Source: an uncultured Saprospiraceae bacterium
GTDB taxonomy: Bacteria; Bacteroidota; Bacteroidia; Chitinophagales; Saprospiraceae
Reading direction: 5' to 3'
Length of the DNA: 15,836 nt
Assembly (NCBI GenBank): GCA_937942465.1
Contig: CALDEO010000261.1
Coordinates: 1 to 15,836 of the forward strand
Both the position numbers and the translations under genes were made by a program. The notes below the pieces were generated by a model that saw nothing but the letters and a program-made list of their open reading frames with translations, did no database searches and was not told the origin of the DNA. Shown piece by piece: positions 5,383 through 14,163 of the stretch. How positions within the stretch are numbered: the first letter of the stretch is position 1; each line of letters opens with the position of its first letter.

Positions 5383-6255
5383 ATGATACTACCTACACAG
5401 ATCAACTATTTAAGCTGCTTGCTAGGTGTCATTTGTCTGATCGGAGTTACAAGTTGTTCTAAGAAAGTAATATACAGTGCCCCTGTTGCACTGTCACAGG
5501 AGTACATATCAGACCTCTCCACGGAAAAACAAATGGCTTATCAATTTGTAACCGCTGCTAAGAACAATGACCATATACTCGATACCCTTTTAAGTGATGA
5601 CTTTTTGAGTTACGACCAGCACTGGGGCGGCCAGAAAAAAGCATTCACAACAATAAGAAACACTGATTCTAGCTTTACGCAAATACACCCAATACGGATA
5701 TTACAGGACGACTCATTAGTTGCCGTACATAGCCGTATGCTTGGAGATACCTTGCGATTTAGATGGGATATTGTAGAGATCAAGCAACAAGAAATACAGA
5801 AACACTGGAGTAATGTCCATGATTCCATTGGGCTCAACCCCGATAAACATTCGGAGATTGATGGTCCGACGATATCTAATCAAATAGCAAAGACTGACAC
5901 CAATCGTGCCTTAGTAAAACGATTTGTCGATCAATGTCTAATACGTGAAGATGGTGGCGCTATCAAGTTTTTCAACTTTGGCTTATACATACAGCACAAC
6001 CGTCATGTAGGTGATGGCGTAAGCGGTCTAGCATGGGAGATTGTCAAAATGAAACTCCGCGGTGGTTCTCTCAAGTTTGAAGATAACTACCATGTCATAG
6101 CCGAGGGCGACCTAGTGCTCAGCGCCAGCGAAGGGTATGTAGATGGACATAAAGTCGCTTTTTATGATCTATTTCGTATAGATCAAAGCAAAATTGTAGA
6201 ACACTGGGACATCATTGCGCCGATCGATAATTTTTTAAACCTACCCAATAAATAA
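5383..6255 (+). CDS. SnoaL-like lipoprotein, two domains
   Basis: A 290-residue exported lipoprotein with lipobox VTSC and Cys25. The C-terminal SnoaL-like domain (about 174-283) is well kept: YIQHNxxVGDGxxG at 202-215 and IVEHWDIIAPI at 271-281, closely matching the second SnoaL domain of the protein at 3087-4574. The N-terminal region (about 47-150) looks like a worn SnoaL repeat: a QKHWSNVHDS segment at 139-148 stands where EHWD is expected, and the YIQHN motif is lost. Only 40 bases separate it from the methyltransferase gene, so they probably share a transcript. It is likely a paralogue arising from the same domain duplication. Confidence 0.88.
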   Translation: MILPTQINYLSCLLGVICLIGVTSCSKKVIYSAPVALSQEYISDLSTEKQMAYQFVTAAKNNDHILDTLLSDDFLSYDQHWGGQKKAFTTIRNTDSSFTQIHPIRILQDDSLVAVHSRMLGDTLRFRWDIVEIKQQEIQKHWSNVHDSIGLNPDKHSEIDGPTISNQIAKTDTNRALVKRFVDQCLIREDGGAIKFFNFGLYIQHNRHVGDGVSGLAWEIVKMKLRGGSLKFEDNYHVIAEGDLVLSASEGYVDGHKVAFYDLFRIDQSKIVEHWDIIAPIDNFLNLPNK

Positions 6256-6322
6256 CTTCTAAAGTTACACTCCTCATATAGAAGTATTTGCGGTCAATTA
6301 TTAGAACTAAAATCAGTTAGAT

Positions 6323-6940
6323 ATGAATTTTGTAAAACGAAACTACGGTTGGATCATAGTAACCATATTGGCGATACTCCCTTTAATTATTGTTTTCGGT
6401 ATGATCAACATTGATTTATCCGACGGTCTATCTATTACATTTGATAAAGGCCCAGGCTCAGAATCTACGCTAGATATGCTCTATCATGTCACGGGAGAGT
6501 TTGCCATTAGATGGATGACATTAGTACTCAGTTGCACCCCGTTCTTTATAATATTCGGAGTTACCAATCTCTATGTAAGACAAGCCATGGGTATCTCGAC
6601 TGCTATTTGGAGTTTTCTACATTTTATCATTTTCTTACTAGCCGAAGGATTTATAGAGACATTCACACAAGTCAACTATGTAGTGGGTTTGATCGCAATA
6701 TTGATACTGATACCCTTATTCTTTACATCAAATAGAAAATCAATGAAACGCTTACGTACAGGGTGGAAAAAACTTCAGACCTTCTCCTATGCAGCTATAT
6801 TCTTAAGTCTTTTACATGTTGCTATCTTGGATAAAGCATGGTTGTTCTATACGATCATAGTTGGTCTTGGTTTTATCATCAGAATACCAGCAATCAAACA
6901 CAAGTTGATCGCTTTCAGAACTCAATCGGCCAAACCATAA
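6323..6940 (+). CDS. MsrQ / ferric-reductase-like membrane protein
   Basis: A 205-residue protein with about six membrane segments, similar in layout to MsrQ, the heme-b membrane partner of the periplasmic methionine-sulfoxide reductase MsrP. Matching features are GEFAIRWMTLVLSCTPF at 58-74 (family pattern GxxAlrxLlxxLxxTP), a short amphipathic stretch with VRQAMG at 85-90 where MsrQ has RRxxG, and three positions that carry His in E. coli MsrQ. Here His100 and His165 are kept, but the middle one (expected in an LHRL-like motif) is Gln152 in KKLQTF. No msrP gene is adjacent. It sits 67 bases after the SnoaL lipoprotein gene, so it may supply electrons to envelope enzymes of the cluster; that role is inferred. 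Confidence 0.75.
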   Translation: MNFVKRNYGWIIVTILAILPLIIVFGMINIDLSDGLSITFDKGPGSESTLDMLYHVTGEFAIRWMTLVLSCTPFFIIFGVTNLYVRQAMGISTAIWSFLHFIIFLLAEGFIETFTQVNYVVGLIAILILIPLFFTSNRKSMKRLRTGWKKLQTFSYAAIFLSLLHVAILDKAWLFYTIIVGLGFIIRIPAIKHKLIAFRTQSAKP

Positions 6941-7282
6941 TATGAAGCCAACAACAATGTAATAGGACCGATTATACCTAGTCCAACTATTAACTTAAGG
7001 ATACGCGTTAATTCAATCTACTTAGTTGTCTTCACAACAACAGAGTCCTCATCCATTCATAATGTGTAATTCCTATGTTTTTAAATTATTTTCTGACAGC
7101 AACGATCTAATTATTTCTTTTTCGTACTTTAAAGAATCATAAGTAAGTTGATTTGATTGTTATCAATAATCCAATAATTGTTGTGAAGCTATTATGGATT
7201 ATATAAAAACGCATCTCCTACACTTATGGCTATGAAGTAATCTCATAGCGCATCATTTTCAGCATCAATTAAGTGTTTCATT
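6941..7282. other. Intergenic stretch before the Nramp-like gene
   Basis: No convincing gene lies here. A 26-codon ORF at 7062-7142 is probably chance. The clearest structure is the inverted repeat at 7166-7202. A TACTTTAA near 7125 is a weak match to the Bacteroidota -7 element. Confidence 0.5.
7166..7202. promoter_or_regulatory. Inverted repeat upstream of the Nramp-like gene
   Basis: ATAATCCA (7166-7173) and TGGATTAT (7195-7202) are perfect complements. Inner bases (ATAAT and ATTA) may extend the stem with one bulge. The site is AT-rich and lies 80 bases before the start codon, so it could be an operator or an RNA stem; no regulator is identified. Confidence 0.35.
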
Positions 7283-8560
7283 ATGCCCCAGTCAGTAGAA
7301 GGAAAATCAATCATTCAAAAAATTCTTTTACTGATTCTAGGCTTTGGCCCTGGGATATTTGCCATTGGGTATACCATAGGTACGGGTAGTGTCACTTCGA
7401 TGATCGTGTCAGGTAGCACCTATGGGATGCAATTGCTATGGGTACTCTTATTGAGCTGTCTATTTTCAGGGATTTTAATGTTTGCCTATGGCAATTATGC
7501 ATTGATATCTGGTGAGACTGCACTCCACGGATTTAGGAAACATATCAAAGGTGGTAAGTTTTTGGCGATCCTCATTATCGTCGGTATCACCTTCGGTCAG
7601 TGGAATTCATTGATGGGTATTTTAGGCATATCTTCCAATATTATATTTGAGCTTTTTGCCTTGAAGTTTCCGAGCCTAGAGCAATACCATTACGGTGGAG
7701 TATTAACAATCGCTATTACGATCATTACTATATTTTACTCTGTGATGCTCGTAGGTAAGTACACTTTCTTCGAAAAAATCTTGGTCATATTCGTATCGAT
7801 TATGGGCTTGTCATTCATTATATCATTGTTCTTTGTACATCCACTGCCGTCAGAGGTTATCGGTGGACTGATGCCTTCTATACCCAATGTACCCGGAGGC
7901 AATATGATGGTAGCAGCATTCGTAGGTACGACTATGGCATCGGCTACATTCTTGTCTAGACCTTTATTTCTCAGAGGTAAAGGGTGGAATGAGAGCAACC
8001 TAGATCACCAAAAGAAGGATGCAATCATTGCTGCAACATTAGTATTTATCATCAGTGCTTCGATAATGGCGGTAGCAACGGGGGCATTATTTCATGGAGG
8101 CCAACCAGTCACTCAAGTACTTGACATGGCTAATACTCTCGAGCCTGTAGCTGGCAATCTAGCCGTTACGATTTTCTTTTTCGGTACTTTAAGTGCAGGA
8201 CTTTCATCTATATTTCCATGTCTACTTATTGCACCATTACTGCTTGCCGATTATCAGTCAGGTACCTTAGATACAAATTCTCGACAGTTTAGAGTTGTTA
8301 CATTCATTGCATGTCTAGTAGCACTTATTGTTCCAGTATTTGGTGCCAACCCGATCGAAATGCAGATCCTATCTCAAGTCTTTAATGTATTTGTACTTCC
8401 CGCAGTGATCATCGGTATTATCCTTATGATTCGCAATAAGAGGGTAATGAAAAATTACAAAACCAGTGCCTTTGTACATATTGGTCTGTACGCTTCATTG
8501 TTCTTTTCGTTAGTGATCTCTTACAATGGGATCATCGGACTTATGGAGTATTTTAACTAA
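7283..8560 (+). CDS. Nramp-fold transporter lacking canonical metal motifs
   Basis: A 425-residue inner-membrane protein with about 11 helices and the LeuT-type Nramp pattern. The opening GFGPGIFAIGYTIGTGS (20-36) corresponds to helix 1 of Nramp, and SGETALHGF (76-84) is typical of Nramp relatives in this phylum. In classical Mn/Fe transporters helix 1 carries DPGN and helix 6 carries MPH. Here helix 1 has TIGTGS at 31-36, and the helix 6 region reads GTTMASATFLSR (215-226). The Asp, Asn and Met metal ligands are therefore absent. Automated annotation would probably call it a divalent-metal transporter, but the substrate could be another ion or a small solute. It stands alone, with long non-coding stretches on both sides. 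Confidence 0.8.
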   Translation: MPQSVEGKSIIQKILLLILGFGPGIFAIGYTIGTGSVTSMIVSGSTYGMQLLWVLLLSCLFSGILMFAYGNYALISGETALHGFRKHIKGGKFLAILIIVGITFGQWNSLMGILGISSNIIFELFALKFPSLEQYHYGGVLTIAITIITIFYSVMLVGKYTFFEKILVIFVSIMGLSFIISLFFVHPLPSEVIGGLMPSIPNVPGGNMMVAAFVGTTMASATFLSRPLFLRGKGWNESNLDHQKKDAIIAATLVFIISASIMAVATGALFHGGQPVTQVLDMANTLEPVAGNLAVTIFFFGTLSAGLSSIFPCLLIAPLLLADYQSGTLDTNSRQFRVVTFIACLVALIVPVFGANPIEMQILSQVFNVFVLPAVIIGIILMIRNKRVMKNYKTSAFVHIGLYASLFFSLVISYNGIIGLMEYFN

Positions 8561-11820: not shown

Positions 11821-11854
11821 TTGTTTCAATATTGAAATAAATGATATACCTTTG
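11821..11854 (+). promoter_or_regulatory. Promoter of the rtcB leader RNA, overlapped by a palindrome
   Basis: TACCTTTG at 11847-11854 is a perfect TAnnTTTG element. The nearest TTG (11821-11823) is 23 bases upstream, slightly long. TTTCAATATTGAAA at 11824-11837 is a perfect 14-base palindrome covering the expected -33 region, a usual position for a repressor site. Transcription should begin near 11860. Confidence 0.65.
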
Positions 11855-11889
11855 AATAAGAAATTTCCTCACCTTTAAACGGAAATATT

Positions 11890-11934
11890 ATGATGGAGCA
11901 GAAAAAACATATCAGTACTTGTGACCTTAAATAG
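11890..11934 (+). CDS. Possible leader peptide (14 aa)
   Basis: The ORF MMEQKKHISTCDLK starts about 30 bases after the predicted transcription start. Its last codons overlap the 5' arms of the ACCTT hairpin and of the alternative TGACCT pairing, and its middle overlaps P1. A translating ribosome would thus change the RNA fold. There is no Shine-Dalgarno sequence, as is common in this phylum. Confidence 0.35.
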   Translation: MMEQKKHISTCDLK

Positions 11935-11964
11935 AAGGTAATACCACATCTATGTTGTATTTCT

Positions 11965-11991
11965 GCCAGGTCATTTGATCGGGCTTTTTTT
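11965..11991 (+). terminator. Intrinsic terminator in the rtcB leader
   Basis: The stem pairs 11965-11973 with 11976-11984 (GCC with GGC, one A/G mismatch, then GGTC with GATC including one G-U pair). A run of seven T residues at 11985-11991 follows directly. It lies about 140 bases before rtcB. Confidence 0.7.
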
Positions 11992-12083
11992 ATTCAAATA
12001 TTGGGATTCATACACTGTCAAGCACTCGCTTGGAGTCTTATCTTCTATTTATACTAGGTTACGGTTTAAGCATCAAACACTTA

Positions 12084-12116
12084 TTGAAAAATTGTCAAAG
12101 AGGACTCTCTTTTGAC
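12084..12116 (+). promoter_or_regulatory. Hairpin and weak promoter just before rtcB
   Basis: GTCAAA-GAG (12094-12102) pairs with CTC-TTTTGAC (12107-12116) around a GACT loop with one bulged base. The same bases read as TTG (12084-12086), 20-base spacer, CTCTTTTG (12107-12114), a -7 element lacking its TA. So it may be a start-proximal RNA stem, a weak second promoter, or an operator. Confidence 0.4.
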
Positions 12117-12133
12117 TTAAATCACTATGCCAC

Positions 12134-13534
12134 ATGGCTAACAAACTTAGAAGCAAAGACTTCAATAAAATTGGAATACATTCCAATAAAACGATATCAA
12201 TAGCGATGTCAATTTTAAAAAAACATTACAAACACAATACCATAATAGAGCATTTAGAAATCATTAAAAAAGTAAAAGATGAACCACAAAATTATATTCA
12301 AGACGCAGTTTTAGCTAGCCTAGCTTTCGAGTTTCATGAACCTATAGTTAAAGCAATAGAACCGATTGCCCTTAATGACAGAGATGTTGTTTTAAATGTA
12401 TTCGGTAGACCATTGATAAAAGACAATGCATACGAGCAAATGAAAACTGCTATGAGATTGCCTGTCGTAAGTAAAGCAGCATTGATGCCAGATAGTCACC
12501 TTGGTTACGGATTGCCTATCGGTGGAGTCCTAGCAACTGACAACACAATTATACCCTATGCTATAGGCATGGATATCGGCTGCAGAATGAGTCTTACACT
12601 TTATGATGTCACAGAGCGGTTTTTAAAAATGCACGAACATAAATTTATGCAGTCTATTAAAGACAATACTGCTTTCGGGATATCTAAGGTTGTGCGATTC
12701 CAGCAGGAGCATAACTTTCTTGATAGAGACGTATTTAACGAAACGCCATTACTTAAGAAATTAAAGTCCAAAGCTGCACGTCAATTAGGATCTTCAGGCT
12801 CTGGAAATCACTTTGTAGAATGGGGTCTAGTTGAATTGAAAAATGACGAACATGTAGGACTACCAGCTGGACATTATTTAGGTCTTTTAGCACATTCTGG
12901 TTCGCGTGGTTTTGGTGCCAGTATTGCTAAATTTTATTCAGATATAGCAAGTAAAGAATCAAATCTACCATACAACATGAGGCATCTGGCCTGGCTAGAT
13001 ATGGATCATACAAGTGGTCAAGAGTATTGGCTATCGATGAATTTAGCTGGTGATTATGCTAGTGCTTGTCATGATCAAATACACAAGAATGTTGCAAAGT
13101 CAATGGGCTTAAAATCAATCGGAAAAATTGAAAACCACCACAACTTTGCATGGAAGGAAATAGTAGATGGTCAAGAGATGATTGTGCATCGTAAAGGAGC
13201 AACACCTGCTAGTAAGGATGTACTTGGTATTATACCTGGATCTATGACAGACCCAGGATTTATCGTAAAAGGTAAAGGAAATATAGACTCCATAAACTCA
13301 GCATCTCATGGCGCAGGTCGAAGACACAGCCGTAAAGAAACTAAATCTCGAAACACCAAAAGTGCGATGAGAAAGCAACTTTTACAGAATGATGTCGCAC
13401 TGATTGGAGGTGCATTGGATGAGTCGCCATATGCATATAAAAACTTAGAGCAAGTGATGTCATACCAGACAGATCTAGTAGACACTATTGGGAAATTTAC
13501 TCCTCGAATTGTAAGAATGGATAGAGACAAATAA
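12134..13534 (+). CDS. rtcB: RtcB-family RNA ligase (RtcB2 type, paired with PrfH)
   Basis: A 466-residue cytoplasmic, Mn2+/GTP-dependent ligase that joins RNA 3'-phosphate or 2',3'-cyclic phosphate ends to 5'-OH ends. Active-site elements are complete: DIGC with Asp147 and Cys150, GSGNHFVE with His226, HSGSR with His254, NHHNF near 334-338, the guanylylated His352 in VHRKGA, PGSM at 368-371, and SHGAGR at 391-396. It is longer than E. coli RtcB (408), mainly through about 60 extra N-terminal residues and an altered insert. The next gene, prfH, starts two bases after the stop, which marks this as the RtcB2 type that reseals cleaved 16S rRNA rather than the RtcA/RtcB stress operon type. No archease gene is adjacent. 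Confidence 0.95.
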   Translation: MANKLRSKDFNKIGIHSNKTISIAMSILKKHYKHNTIIEHLEIIKKVKDEPQNYIQDAVLASLAFEFHEPIVKAIEPIALNDRDVVLNVFGRPLIKDNAYEQMKTAMRLPVVSKAALMPDSHLGYGLPIGGVLATDNTIIPYAIGMDIGCRMSLTLYDVTERFLKMHEHKFMQSIKDNTAFGISKVVRFQQEHNFLDRDVFNETPLLKKLKSKAARQLGSSGSGNHFVEWGLVELKNDEHVGLPAGHYLGLLAHSGSRGFGASIAKFYSDIASKESNLPYNMRHLAWLDMDHTSGQEYWLSMNLAGDYASACHDQIHKNVAKSMGLKSIGKIENHHNFAWKEIVDGQEMIVHRKGATPASKDVLGIIPGSMTDPGFIVKGKGNIDSINSASHGAGRRHSRKETKSRNTKSAMRKQLLQNDVALIGGALDESPYAYKNLEQVMSYQTDLVDTIGKFTPRIVRMDRDK

Positions 13535-13536
13535 TA

Positions 13537-14163
13537 ATGAAGAATCAATTATACATAATATTCACCGCAGGCCGAGGGCCTGATGAATGTGGACTAGCCG
13601 TCGATGGTGTCCAGAAAAAATTTAGAACATACTTAGAAAGTACAGCGACGTCTTTTGAAGTTATCAGCCAGAAAAAGGGATCGATAAATCAATCAATAGA
13701 GACCATTGTATTTAAAGTAACTACAGATAATCGGGCAATGATAGATCCTTGGATAGGAAGTATCCAATGGATATGTCAGAGTCCAATTAGAAAAAGCCAC
13801 AAACGCAAAAACTGGTTTATCAAATGTCAAGAAATCAAAATCCCTAAAAAGTTAGAGATTGATATAAATGACATAGATGTTCAAACCTATAGAGCCTCAG
13901 GCCCAGGTGGGCAACATCGTAATAAGGTAGAAACAGCAATAAGAGTAATCCATAATCAGACTGGTATCATTGTCACTGCAAGTGATGGCAAATCACAAAG
14001 TCAAAACAAAAAGAAAGCAATGCAAAAGTTAATGGCAAAGCTTGAATCTCAAAATGAACTTATTCAACAAGGCTTTAATACCGATCGATGGACCTCTCAA
14101 CTTGAGATCGAAAGAGGTAACCCAGCAAAAACGTTTAATGGATTAAAATTTAAAGAATGCTAA
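13537..14163 (+). CDS. prfH: Peptide chain release factor homolog PrfH
   Basis: A 208-residue relative of class I release factors. GGQ at 124-126, inside SGPGGQHRNKVETAIRV, is the peptidyl-tRNA hydrolysis motif. The N-terminal part is short and lacks the codon-reading region with PxT or SPF motifs of RF1/RF2. It has instead the PrfH pattern: TAGRGPDEC at 10-18 and SPIRKSHKRKNWF at 82-94. Published work shows PrfH frees peptides from ribosomes whose decoding centre is cut (the colicin E3 lesion), letting RtcB2 seal the 16S rRNA. The two genes are two bases apart, so translation is probably coupled. All key residues are present. A standard release-factor role is unlikely given the missing domain. 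Confidence 0.95.
   Translation: MKNQLYIIFTAGRGPDECGLAVDGVQKKFRTYLESTATSFEVISQKKGSINQSIETIVFKVTTDNRAMIDPWIGSIQWICQSPIRKSHKRKNWFIKCQEIKIPKKLEIDINDIDVQTYRASGPGGQHRNKVETAIRVIHNQTGIIVTASDGKSQSQNKKKAMQKLMAKLESQNELIQQGFNTDRWTSQLEIERGNPAKTFNGLKFKEC

Follow-up and report, generated by a model that had tools for sequence, protein, structure and literature searches.

A conserved leader upstream of rtcB-prfH in Bacteroidota with the features of a translation-coupled transcription attenuator

The window is a stretch of 15,836 nucleotides from an uncultured Saprospiraceae bacterium (assembly GCA_937942465.1, contig CALDEO010000261.1), the genome of which is 65% complete. It contains rtcB and prfH, preceded by a putative leader. 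How rtcB-prfH is switched on has been a gap. All of the leader elements listed in a preliminary description were found in the window sequence; those retained here, together with the two genes, are as follows.

11847-11854, plus strand: -7 promoter element TACCTTTG, a sequence match to the Bacteroidota consensus TAnnTTTG, at the same place in most same-family relatives
11863-11886, plus strand: P0, a predicted 5' hairpin (AUUUCC/GGAAAU) just 5' of the leader ORF
11890-11934, plus strand: leader ORF of 14 codons, MMEQKKHISTCDLK, with its ATG at 11890 and a TAG stop at 11932-11934; type A relatives have ORFs at the same place
11898-11904 and 11960-11966, plus strand: arms of the P1 helix; 80.3% of cells paired, two of seven pairs changed on both sides
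11907-11913, plus strand: ACATATC core, which defines type A leaders and is retained in them in three reading frames
11922-11927, plus strand: segment 2, the antiterminator strand TGACCT, inside the leader ORF just 5' of the stop; 85.2% of cells paired, three of six pairs changed on both sides
11968-11973, plus strand: segment 3, AGGTCA, the covarying partner of segment 2, mostly within the 5' arm of the terminator
11965-11991, plus strand: intrinsic terminator GCCAGGTC-ATTT-GATCGGGC (arms 11965-11972 and 11977-11984; -7.4 kcal/mol), then seven T (11985-11991)
12134-13534, plus strand: rtcB, RNA ligase (PF01139, E 1.7e-77)
13537-14163, plus strand: prfH, release factor H (RF-1 domain; TIGR03072, 175.2 bits against a cut-off of 166.65)

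The terminator ends 142 bases before rtcB. The distribution of PrfH is patchy: it was found in 13 of 398 same-family genomes searched, the window's own included, and is absent from both other genomes of the window's genus (E <= 1e-30 in each case).

Judged from the window alone, the leader is unpersuasive, with an unremarkable folding z of -0.57 and with a promoter pattern and a palindrome that occur at chance frequency. TAnnTTTG is the -7 consensus of Bacteroidota according to the available part of one study (PMC7366714). There are 18 matches to it in the window compared with 19.0 expected, and a match alone is not above chance. The plus strand from 11855 to rtcB contains no TAnnTTTG, and transcription is expected to start near 11860 on the basis of the promoter sequence. 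The perfect 14-nt palindrome TTTCAATATTGAAA at the promoter (11824-11837), which had been described as lying over it, was considered as an operator and rejected, with one such palindrome in the window compared with 1.9 in shuffles; it is missing from five of the six relatives and is probably no part of the leader. L156 has a different palindrome of 16 nt. P1 shares 2 nt with the start of the terminator, and in combination P1 and the antiterminator would make a pseudoknot. A terminator scan of the window missed the terminator at 11965-11991, probably owing to its A:G mismatch, which is peculiar to the window; the other eight aligned sequences pair at this position. The idea that the ACCTT/AAGGT hairpin (11924-11928 with 11936-11940) is a conserved protector helix was also discarded, as by eye this hairpin is strong in the window only.

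Comparison with relatives is more informative. Upstream regions were taken from prfH-linked rtcB genes, and eight loci encode an RtcB at least 67% identical to that of the window. The same leader is present in six of these (L111, L154, L155, L156, L158 and L160; RtcB 69-76% identical), a contig end cuts off the leader region in L157, and the close relative L159 (RtcB 68% identical) has no such leader upstream. From promoter to terminator the leader is 71-85% identical to the window in the six same-family loci (54-56% for shuffled sequences). The 142 bases 3' of the leader are 58-68% identical (shuffled 56-60%), and those 5' of it are 50-66% identical (shuffled 51-65%; only 59 bases in L155). 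The retention of the leader between flanks that are near the shuffled level indicates that selection has kept the leader RNA. In L169 and L194, two distant loci with the same plan, leader identities are 63 and 64%, respectively, compared with 50 and 54% after shuffling.

A covariation check of the leader, suggested in the preliminary description, was run on an alignment of nine sequences, in which the pairs of both the terminator and the antiterminator were found to covary. In the terminator 98.6% of cells are paired and three pairs have changed on both sides, with slid versions reaching at most 48.6%; its covariation score was reached by 4 of 500 shuffles, which ignore relatedness. For P1 plus the antiterminator the paired fraction is 82.6% of cells, compared with a maximum of 47.8% in slid versions, and both bases have changed in five pairs; none of 500 shuffles, again ignoring relatedness, attained the covariation score. 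L194 is misaligned at segment 2 and counts against pairing there. Of the six-base TGACCT/AGGTCA pairing that had been proposed, the core TGACC/GGTCA is conserved and the sixth pair is not, being unpaired in four of the nine sequences. In L160, segments 2, 3 and 4 have changed together (TGACTAG, CTAGTT and GACTAG). The arms of P0 also co-vary by eye, appearing as AUUCC/GGAAU, as AUUGUGU/ACACAAU (L103, L105 and L107) and as CUCC/GGAG (L169 and L194). We note a Shine-Dalgarno-like GGAGG 5' of the leader ORF, in or next to P0, in L194, L169 and L161. Such sites are rarely used in Bacteroidota. In these leaders the ORF start might sense the 3' end of 16S rRNA.

Sequence comparison establishes that these elements exist, that they are conserved, that terminator, antiterminator and P1 covary and that the leader precedes rtcB-prfH. 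We infer from this that the leader is transcribed, that its ORF is translated, that the RNA switches between two structures and that the signal to which it naturally responds is ribosome failure or damage. In our view the leader is likely to be a translation-coupled transcription attenuator, through which failure of ribosomes on the leader ORF would allow rtcB-prfH to be transcribed. RNA polymerase would start near 11860 and make the leader ORF first. A ribosome reaching the stop codon (11932-11934) would cover roughly 11914-11946 and mask segment 2 (TGACC, 11922-11926), leaving segment 3 free for segment 4, so that the terminator would form and transcription would stop near 11991. Were initiation to fail or the ribosome to stall early, segment 3 would be captured before segment 4 exists, by segment 2 after an early stall or by P1 and the start region without a ribosome, and the polymerase would read on into rtcB-prfH.

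Predicted folding energies bear on this scheme. Masking all of the RNA as far as 11946, as a ribosome at the leader stop codon would, leaves the terminator as the sole fold (-8.6 kcal/mol), and the nascent RNA from 11919 to 11976 folds as the antiterminator (-13.0 kcal/mol). In the complete free RNA the terminator fold has an energy of -15.9 kcal/mol (11919-11991), compared with -11.1 kcal/mol for the enforced antiterminator (11922-11973). The terminator fold is thus the more stable once segment 4 has been made, and the switch must be kinetic and decided while the RNA grows. Known attenuators likewise decide during RNA growth. The ribosome-free nascent fold (11862-11976, -24.5 kcal/mol) lacks the pairing of segments 2 and 3; segment 3 instead pairs with the start region (11890-11894 with 11970-11974) beside P1, and segment 2 lies in the window's own ACCTT/AAGGT hairpin. 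The start-region pairing was rejected as a conserved element, with no pair changed on both sides and, together with P1, a score matched by 79 of 500 shuffles. Since the ribosome-free fold lacks the 2:3 pairing and the start-region pairing lacks covariation, readthrough after an early stall is better supported than readthrough without initiation.

Ribosome-sensing attenuation had been proposed for this leader at the outset, and the conserved ORF, the antiterminator inside the ORF, the covarying terminator and the linkage to rtcB-prfH all support it. The accompanying statement that no such leader was known for this operon did not survive, as there is a precedent in Pseudomonas. The primary paper on that leader, PA5471.1, reportedly dates from 2009. 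In the accessible portions of two later papers, the P. aeruginosa genes armZ (PA5471, RtcB-like) and prfH (PA5470) are described as being under the leader peptide PA5471.1, with a proposed model in which full translation leads to the terminator and stalled ribosomes lead to readthrough (PMC12057347, PMC13041342); an amber codon at position 3 of PA5471.1 raises ArmZ (PMC13041342). As described there, PA5471.1 resembles the window in having a leader ORF and a terminator upstream of an RtcB-like gene beside prfH, and the same logic has been proposed. The window contains a short ORF between promoter and terminator, as do its relatives; its terminator has a mutually exclusive antiterminator, judging from covariation and calculated energies; and the leader is directly 5' of an RtcB-family gene with prfH next. 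The two systems differ in that Pseudomonas belongs to a different phylum and ArmZ is described as an anti-repressor of an efflux regulator. The likeness of the ORFs is one of layout, codons 3 and 4 being Gln and Phe in PA5471.1, as far as it is described, and Glu and Gln in the window (Gln and Lys from the second ATG). ACATATC, P0 and P1 are unmentioned in the available descriptions of PA5471.1 (PMC12057347, PMC13041342).

Other known systems share some of these features. The leader resembles trp/his-type attenuators in that the position of the ribosome would set terminator against antiterminator, and differs from them in controlling genes for RNA repair and ribosome rescue. Competing terminators and antiterminators governed by ribosome position are the hallmark of trp/his-type attenuators. 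No run of regulatory codons of the his/trp kind is evident by eye in the window ORF or in the listed leader peptides. Control of rtcB by the activator RtcR involves sigma54. Attenuators of amino-acid biosynthesis have also been inferred in Flavobacterium psychrophilum, according to the part of that study available (PMC9723704). RtcR controls rtcB in E. coli and Salmonella, and in Anabaena TrcR controls rtcB and a trn operon of 26 tRNAs, as stated in the available text of PMC10272220. The RtcR system is likewise one of stress-induced RNA repair, with a protein activator in place of an RNA leader. In Anabaena, translational stress derepresses RtcB along with a reserve tRNA array, to be compared with the tRNA arrays of relatives described below, but TrcR is a repressor that binds DNA and has rtcB and trn as separate targets, and the available text mentions no leader ORF (PMC10272220). 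The terms 'leader' and 'upstream' are absent from the paper on the E. coli operon and colicin E3 protection (PMC9223846), 'leader' and 'attenuat' from the main text of the 2006 operon paper, and 'rtcB' from the main texts of the F. psychrophilum and B. thetaiotaomicron transcriptome papers. No such Bacteroidota leader was found in the accessible literature searched, which largely excluded subscription papers.

The breadth of the arrangement was surveyed using a PrfH alignment scan of named genomes, from which the best 80 of 414 relatives were used; a scan with a single PrfH sequence as the query found nothing. A total of 142 loci were fetched and reduced to 110 distinct loci with an rtcB start linked to prfH, which are not a random sample. 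Those excluded were 16 without a usable rtcB start (14 without rtcB at E 1e-30, one truncated and one missing its 5' part), four duplicates and 12 without established prfH linkage. The last 12 formed a small and mixed control set, two members of which, L174 and L115, have leaders and may belong with a prfH located beyond the distance limit. A set of 29 RtcB loci (L113-L141) intended as a prfH-free control was void, as most proved to be prfH-linked. In L094, L095, L101 and L104, which are prfH loci, similarity to the window's RtcB finds no adjacent rtcB.

A strict detector requiring TAnnTTTG, an ORF and a terminator was positive in 40 of the 110 loci, six of 2200 shuffles and none of the 12 control loci. 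A generic detector required no promoter, only an ORF, a terminator and at least 5 nt near the ORF stop complementary to a terminator arm; it was positive in 57 of 110 loci, compared with one of 550 shuffles, two of 110 reverse complements and two of 12 control loci. One or both detectors were positive in 63 of 110, and a few positives of either look spurious (e.g. L190). Sorting by sequence pattern assigns a leader ORF to 80 of the 110 loci and none to the other 30; 33 loci are of type A, 47 of type B and 7 of type C, some of them belonging to more than one type. Fulvivirga sediminis (L194) has a type A leader, and Flavobacterium pectinovorum (L168) one of type B. The corresponding counts in shuffles were 16 of 2200 for A and zero for B and C, those in reverse complements one of 110 for A and zero for B and C, and those in control loci one of 12 each; the patterns were fixed after the sequences had been seen, and these controls test the patterns and not their choice. 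Among the 30 leaderless loci, L157, L177 and L241 have little upstream sequence and L109 is partly masked. L096 and L099, same-family loci that are leaderless by pattern, have by eye a type-B-like ORF ending in LRGLHFS and a terminator that the detectors missed.

Type B occurs in Flavobacteriaceae and some others. CGAAG precedes its ORF, which itself contains CTTCG, and its terminator contains CGAAG and TTCGG. Type B thereby possesses the full set of canonical pairings known from trp/his attenuators, 1:2 (CGAAG/CTTCG), 2:3 (CTTCG/CGAAG) and 3:4 (CGAAG/TTCGG followed by a T run), and its ORF covers segment 2. On this model, the genes would be expected to stay silent when no ribosome is present and to be expressed after an early stall. 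Differences among type B ORFs number 445, 393 and 471 at codon positions 1, 2 and 3, giving no third-position bias, so that the substitutions give no sign of a constrained peptide or of translation; selection on the leader peptide was dropped as a candidate on these grounds. The type C terminator is GCGTCC/GGACGC. Type C and then type B attenuators are found in tandem upstream of rtcB-prfH in L116, L167, L185, L196, L200 and L206. In L178 (2610-3104) a tandem C and B pair lies about 500 bases before prfH, where similarity finds only a C-terminal piece of rtcB.

Terminators were found by the detectors in ten of the 33 type A loci and not in the other 23. Chitinophagaceae-kind type A leaders (18 loci, including L193) were positive in neither detector; inspection by eye shows in them a hairpin, GCCTGATACAGGC, where the ORF stops, and a distant complement, TGCCTGTAT (e.g. 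L164 and L165). Many type A ORFs read M-x-E-Q/R, one or two residues and then H-I. The ACATATC core is read as CAT ATC in the window, as CAC ATA, TAC ATA or AAC ATA in Chitinophagaceae and others, and as ACA TAT in L156, L167 and L209. Its retention across three frames indicates that part of the conservation is at the RNA level.

This core also underlies a narrower account, which we consider unlikely, in which the ORF monitors a single class of tRNA, charged or intact, and not the ribosome generally. ACATATC provides an NAY codon (His, Tyr, Asn or Asp) in every frame. If the tRNAs for these codons were lost, for example by the action of an anticodon nuclease, the ribosome would stall and RtcB, an RNA ligase, would be induced. 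The retention of the motif in all of the above readings is consistent with this, as is the involvement of PA5471.1 codons 3 and 4 when cells respond to losing the CCA-adding enzyme, described in the accessible part of PMC13041342. Against it, there is no run of a single codon, L107 has CCATATC read as TCC ATA, a stop codon precedes the motif in L193, and types B and C are mostly without ACATATC. By eye, moreover, P1 could be extended to take in the 5' half of the motif, which would explain the conservation of ACATATC at the RNA level.

Frame-independent conservation of ACATATC, together with that of P1 and, by eye, P0, would also suit a riboswitch that binds a metabolite or protein and contains an ORF by chance. 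We regard this as very improbable, given the position of the antiterminator strand, which coincides with the ORF stop in type A and falls within the ORF in type B, and given that in other families the same place is occupied by leaders that share the ORF-terminator plan but differ in sequence. An Rfam search of the window gave no family at the gathering cut-off and no riboswitch or leader match (best E 0.84, far below the cut-off), and in 12 relatives' loci it found only tRNAs, all in L167, again with no riboswitch or leader match.

The specificity of the leader to rtcB-prfH was assessed by running a covariance model of it, R1, on 20 whole genomes. Seven matches had E < 1e-18, all of them leaders in the model, and the next two, with E values of 0.001 and 0.003, are rtcB-prfH leaders outside the model (G915 and G882). 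The remaining matches have E >= 0.006, and the four inspected resemble terminators, coding sequence or chance. With stricter filters, 150 same-family genomes gave strong matches only at the rtcB-prfH leaders of G000 and G842; two weak matches fall at a gene-end terminator and a gene start (G838 and G077). A DNA search with the leader only in 148 genomes returned short pieces, the best of which was a gene-end terminator. The expectation that the RNA would be conserved next to rtcB-prfH was thus upheld, with no strong match elsewhere in the genomes searched. A near-identical terminator stem occurs at a plain gene end in G037 (L033), so that the terminator alone is ordinary. That copy, and the 142 bases between terminator and rtcB, would fit a free small RNA or a terminator merely ending the upstream gene, with rtcB having its own promoter, but this is scarcely credible when strong model matches occur solely before rtcB-prfH, promoter element, ORF and terminator stay together as the flanks diverge, no further TAnnTTTG lies on the plus strand before rtcB and segment 2 covaries with segment 3.

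The leader is therefore real, conserved and, as judged from the genomes searched, specific to this operon, and ribosome-sensing attenuation, of a kind known from Pseudomonas, is much the likeliest reading of it. The Bacteroidota forms, their spread, the tandem attenuators and the frame-independent ACATATC core appear to be new. If Bacteroidota leaders test ribosome function, as they appear to, PA5471.1 would be a single instance of a more general design, and the leaders would offer short, portable RNA sensors of ribosome failure. A wider combined reading, which we put forward tentatively and think rather doubtful as a whole, is that ribosome-test ORFs commonly govern rtcB-prfH in Bacteroidota as in Pseudomonas, with at least three Bacteroidota types that sometimes form tandem pairs, that some Flavobacteriales switches also release reserve tRNAs 3' of prfH and that type A senses ACATATC through a His, Tyr, Asn or Asp codon in every frame. 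If this were true, ribosome rescue, RNA ligation and tRNA replacement would all depend on a single RNA sensor.

In Flavobacteriales, tRNA genes lie 3' of prfH on the same strand in nine of the 80 named loci (the best 80 of 414 relatives), four of the nine having 11 to 13 tRNAs. The nine are L174, L177, L180, L204 and L205 together with L167 (Zobellia uliginosa), L203, L215 and L238; positions of these tRNA genes and of genes between them and prfH are as follows.

L167: 4272-4817, gene between prfH and the tRNAs; 5631-6746, tRNA genes on the same strand as prfH
L203: 4975-6093, tRNA genes on the same strand as prfH
L204: 4287-4823, gene between prfH and the tRNAs
L215: 4287-4820 and 4845-5423, genes between prfH and the tRNAs; 6126-7790, tRNA genes on the same strand as prfH
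L238: 5187-6515, tRNA genes on the same strand as prfH

These arrays are possibly a reserve tRNA set, comparable to the Anabaena trn operon with rtcB, as far as that is described in the available text of PMC10272220. A B-kind leader lies upstream in the tRNA-bearing loci L167, L174, L180, L204 and L205; none was found in the 584-923 upstream bases available for L203, L215 and L238. The protein of about 180 residues encoded between prfH and the tRNAs in L167, L204 and L215 is TPR-like in L167 and L215 and similar by eye in L204, and L215 additionally has a calcineurin-like phosphoesterase there. On the other side of the operon, six of 12 inspected loci (L173, L131, L218, L225, L213 and L137) encode similar-looking proteins of 244-265 residues directly 5' of rtcB, which are absent from the window; two of them were searched and gave no Pfam match at E <= 1. 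In L131, L137 and L173 the leader precedes this extra gene of about 250 residues, which is followed by rtcB.
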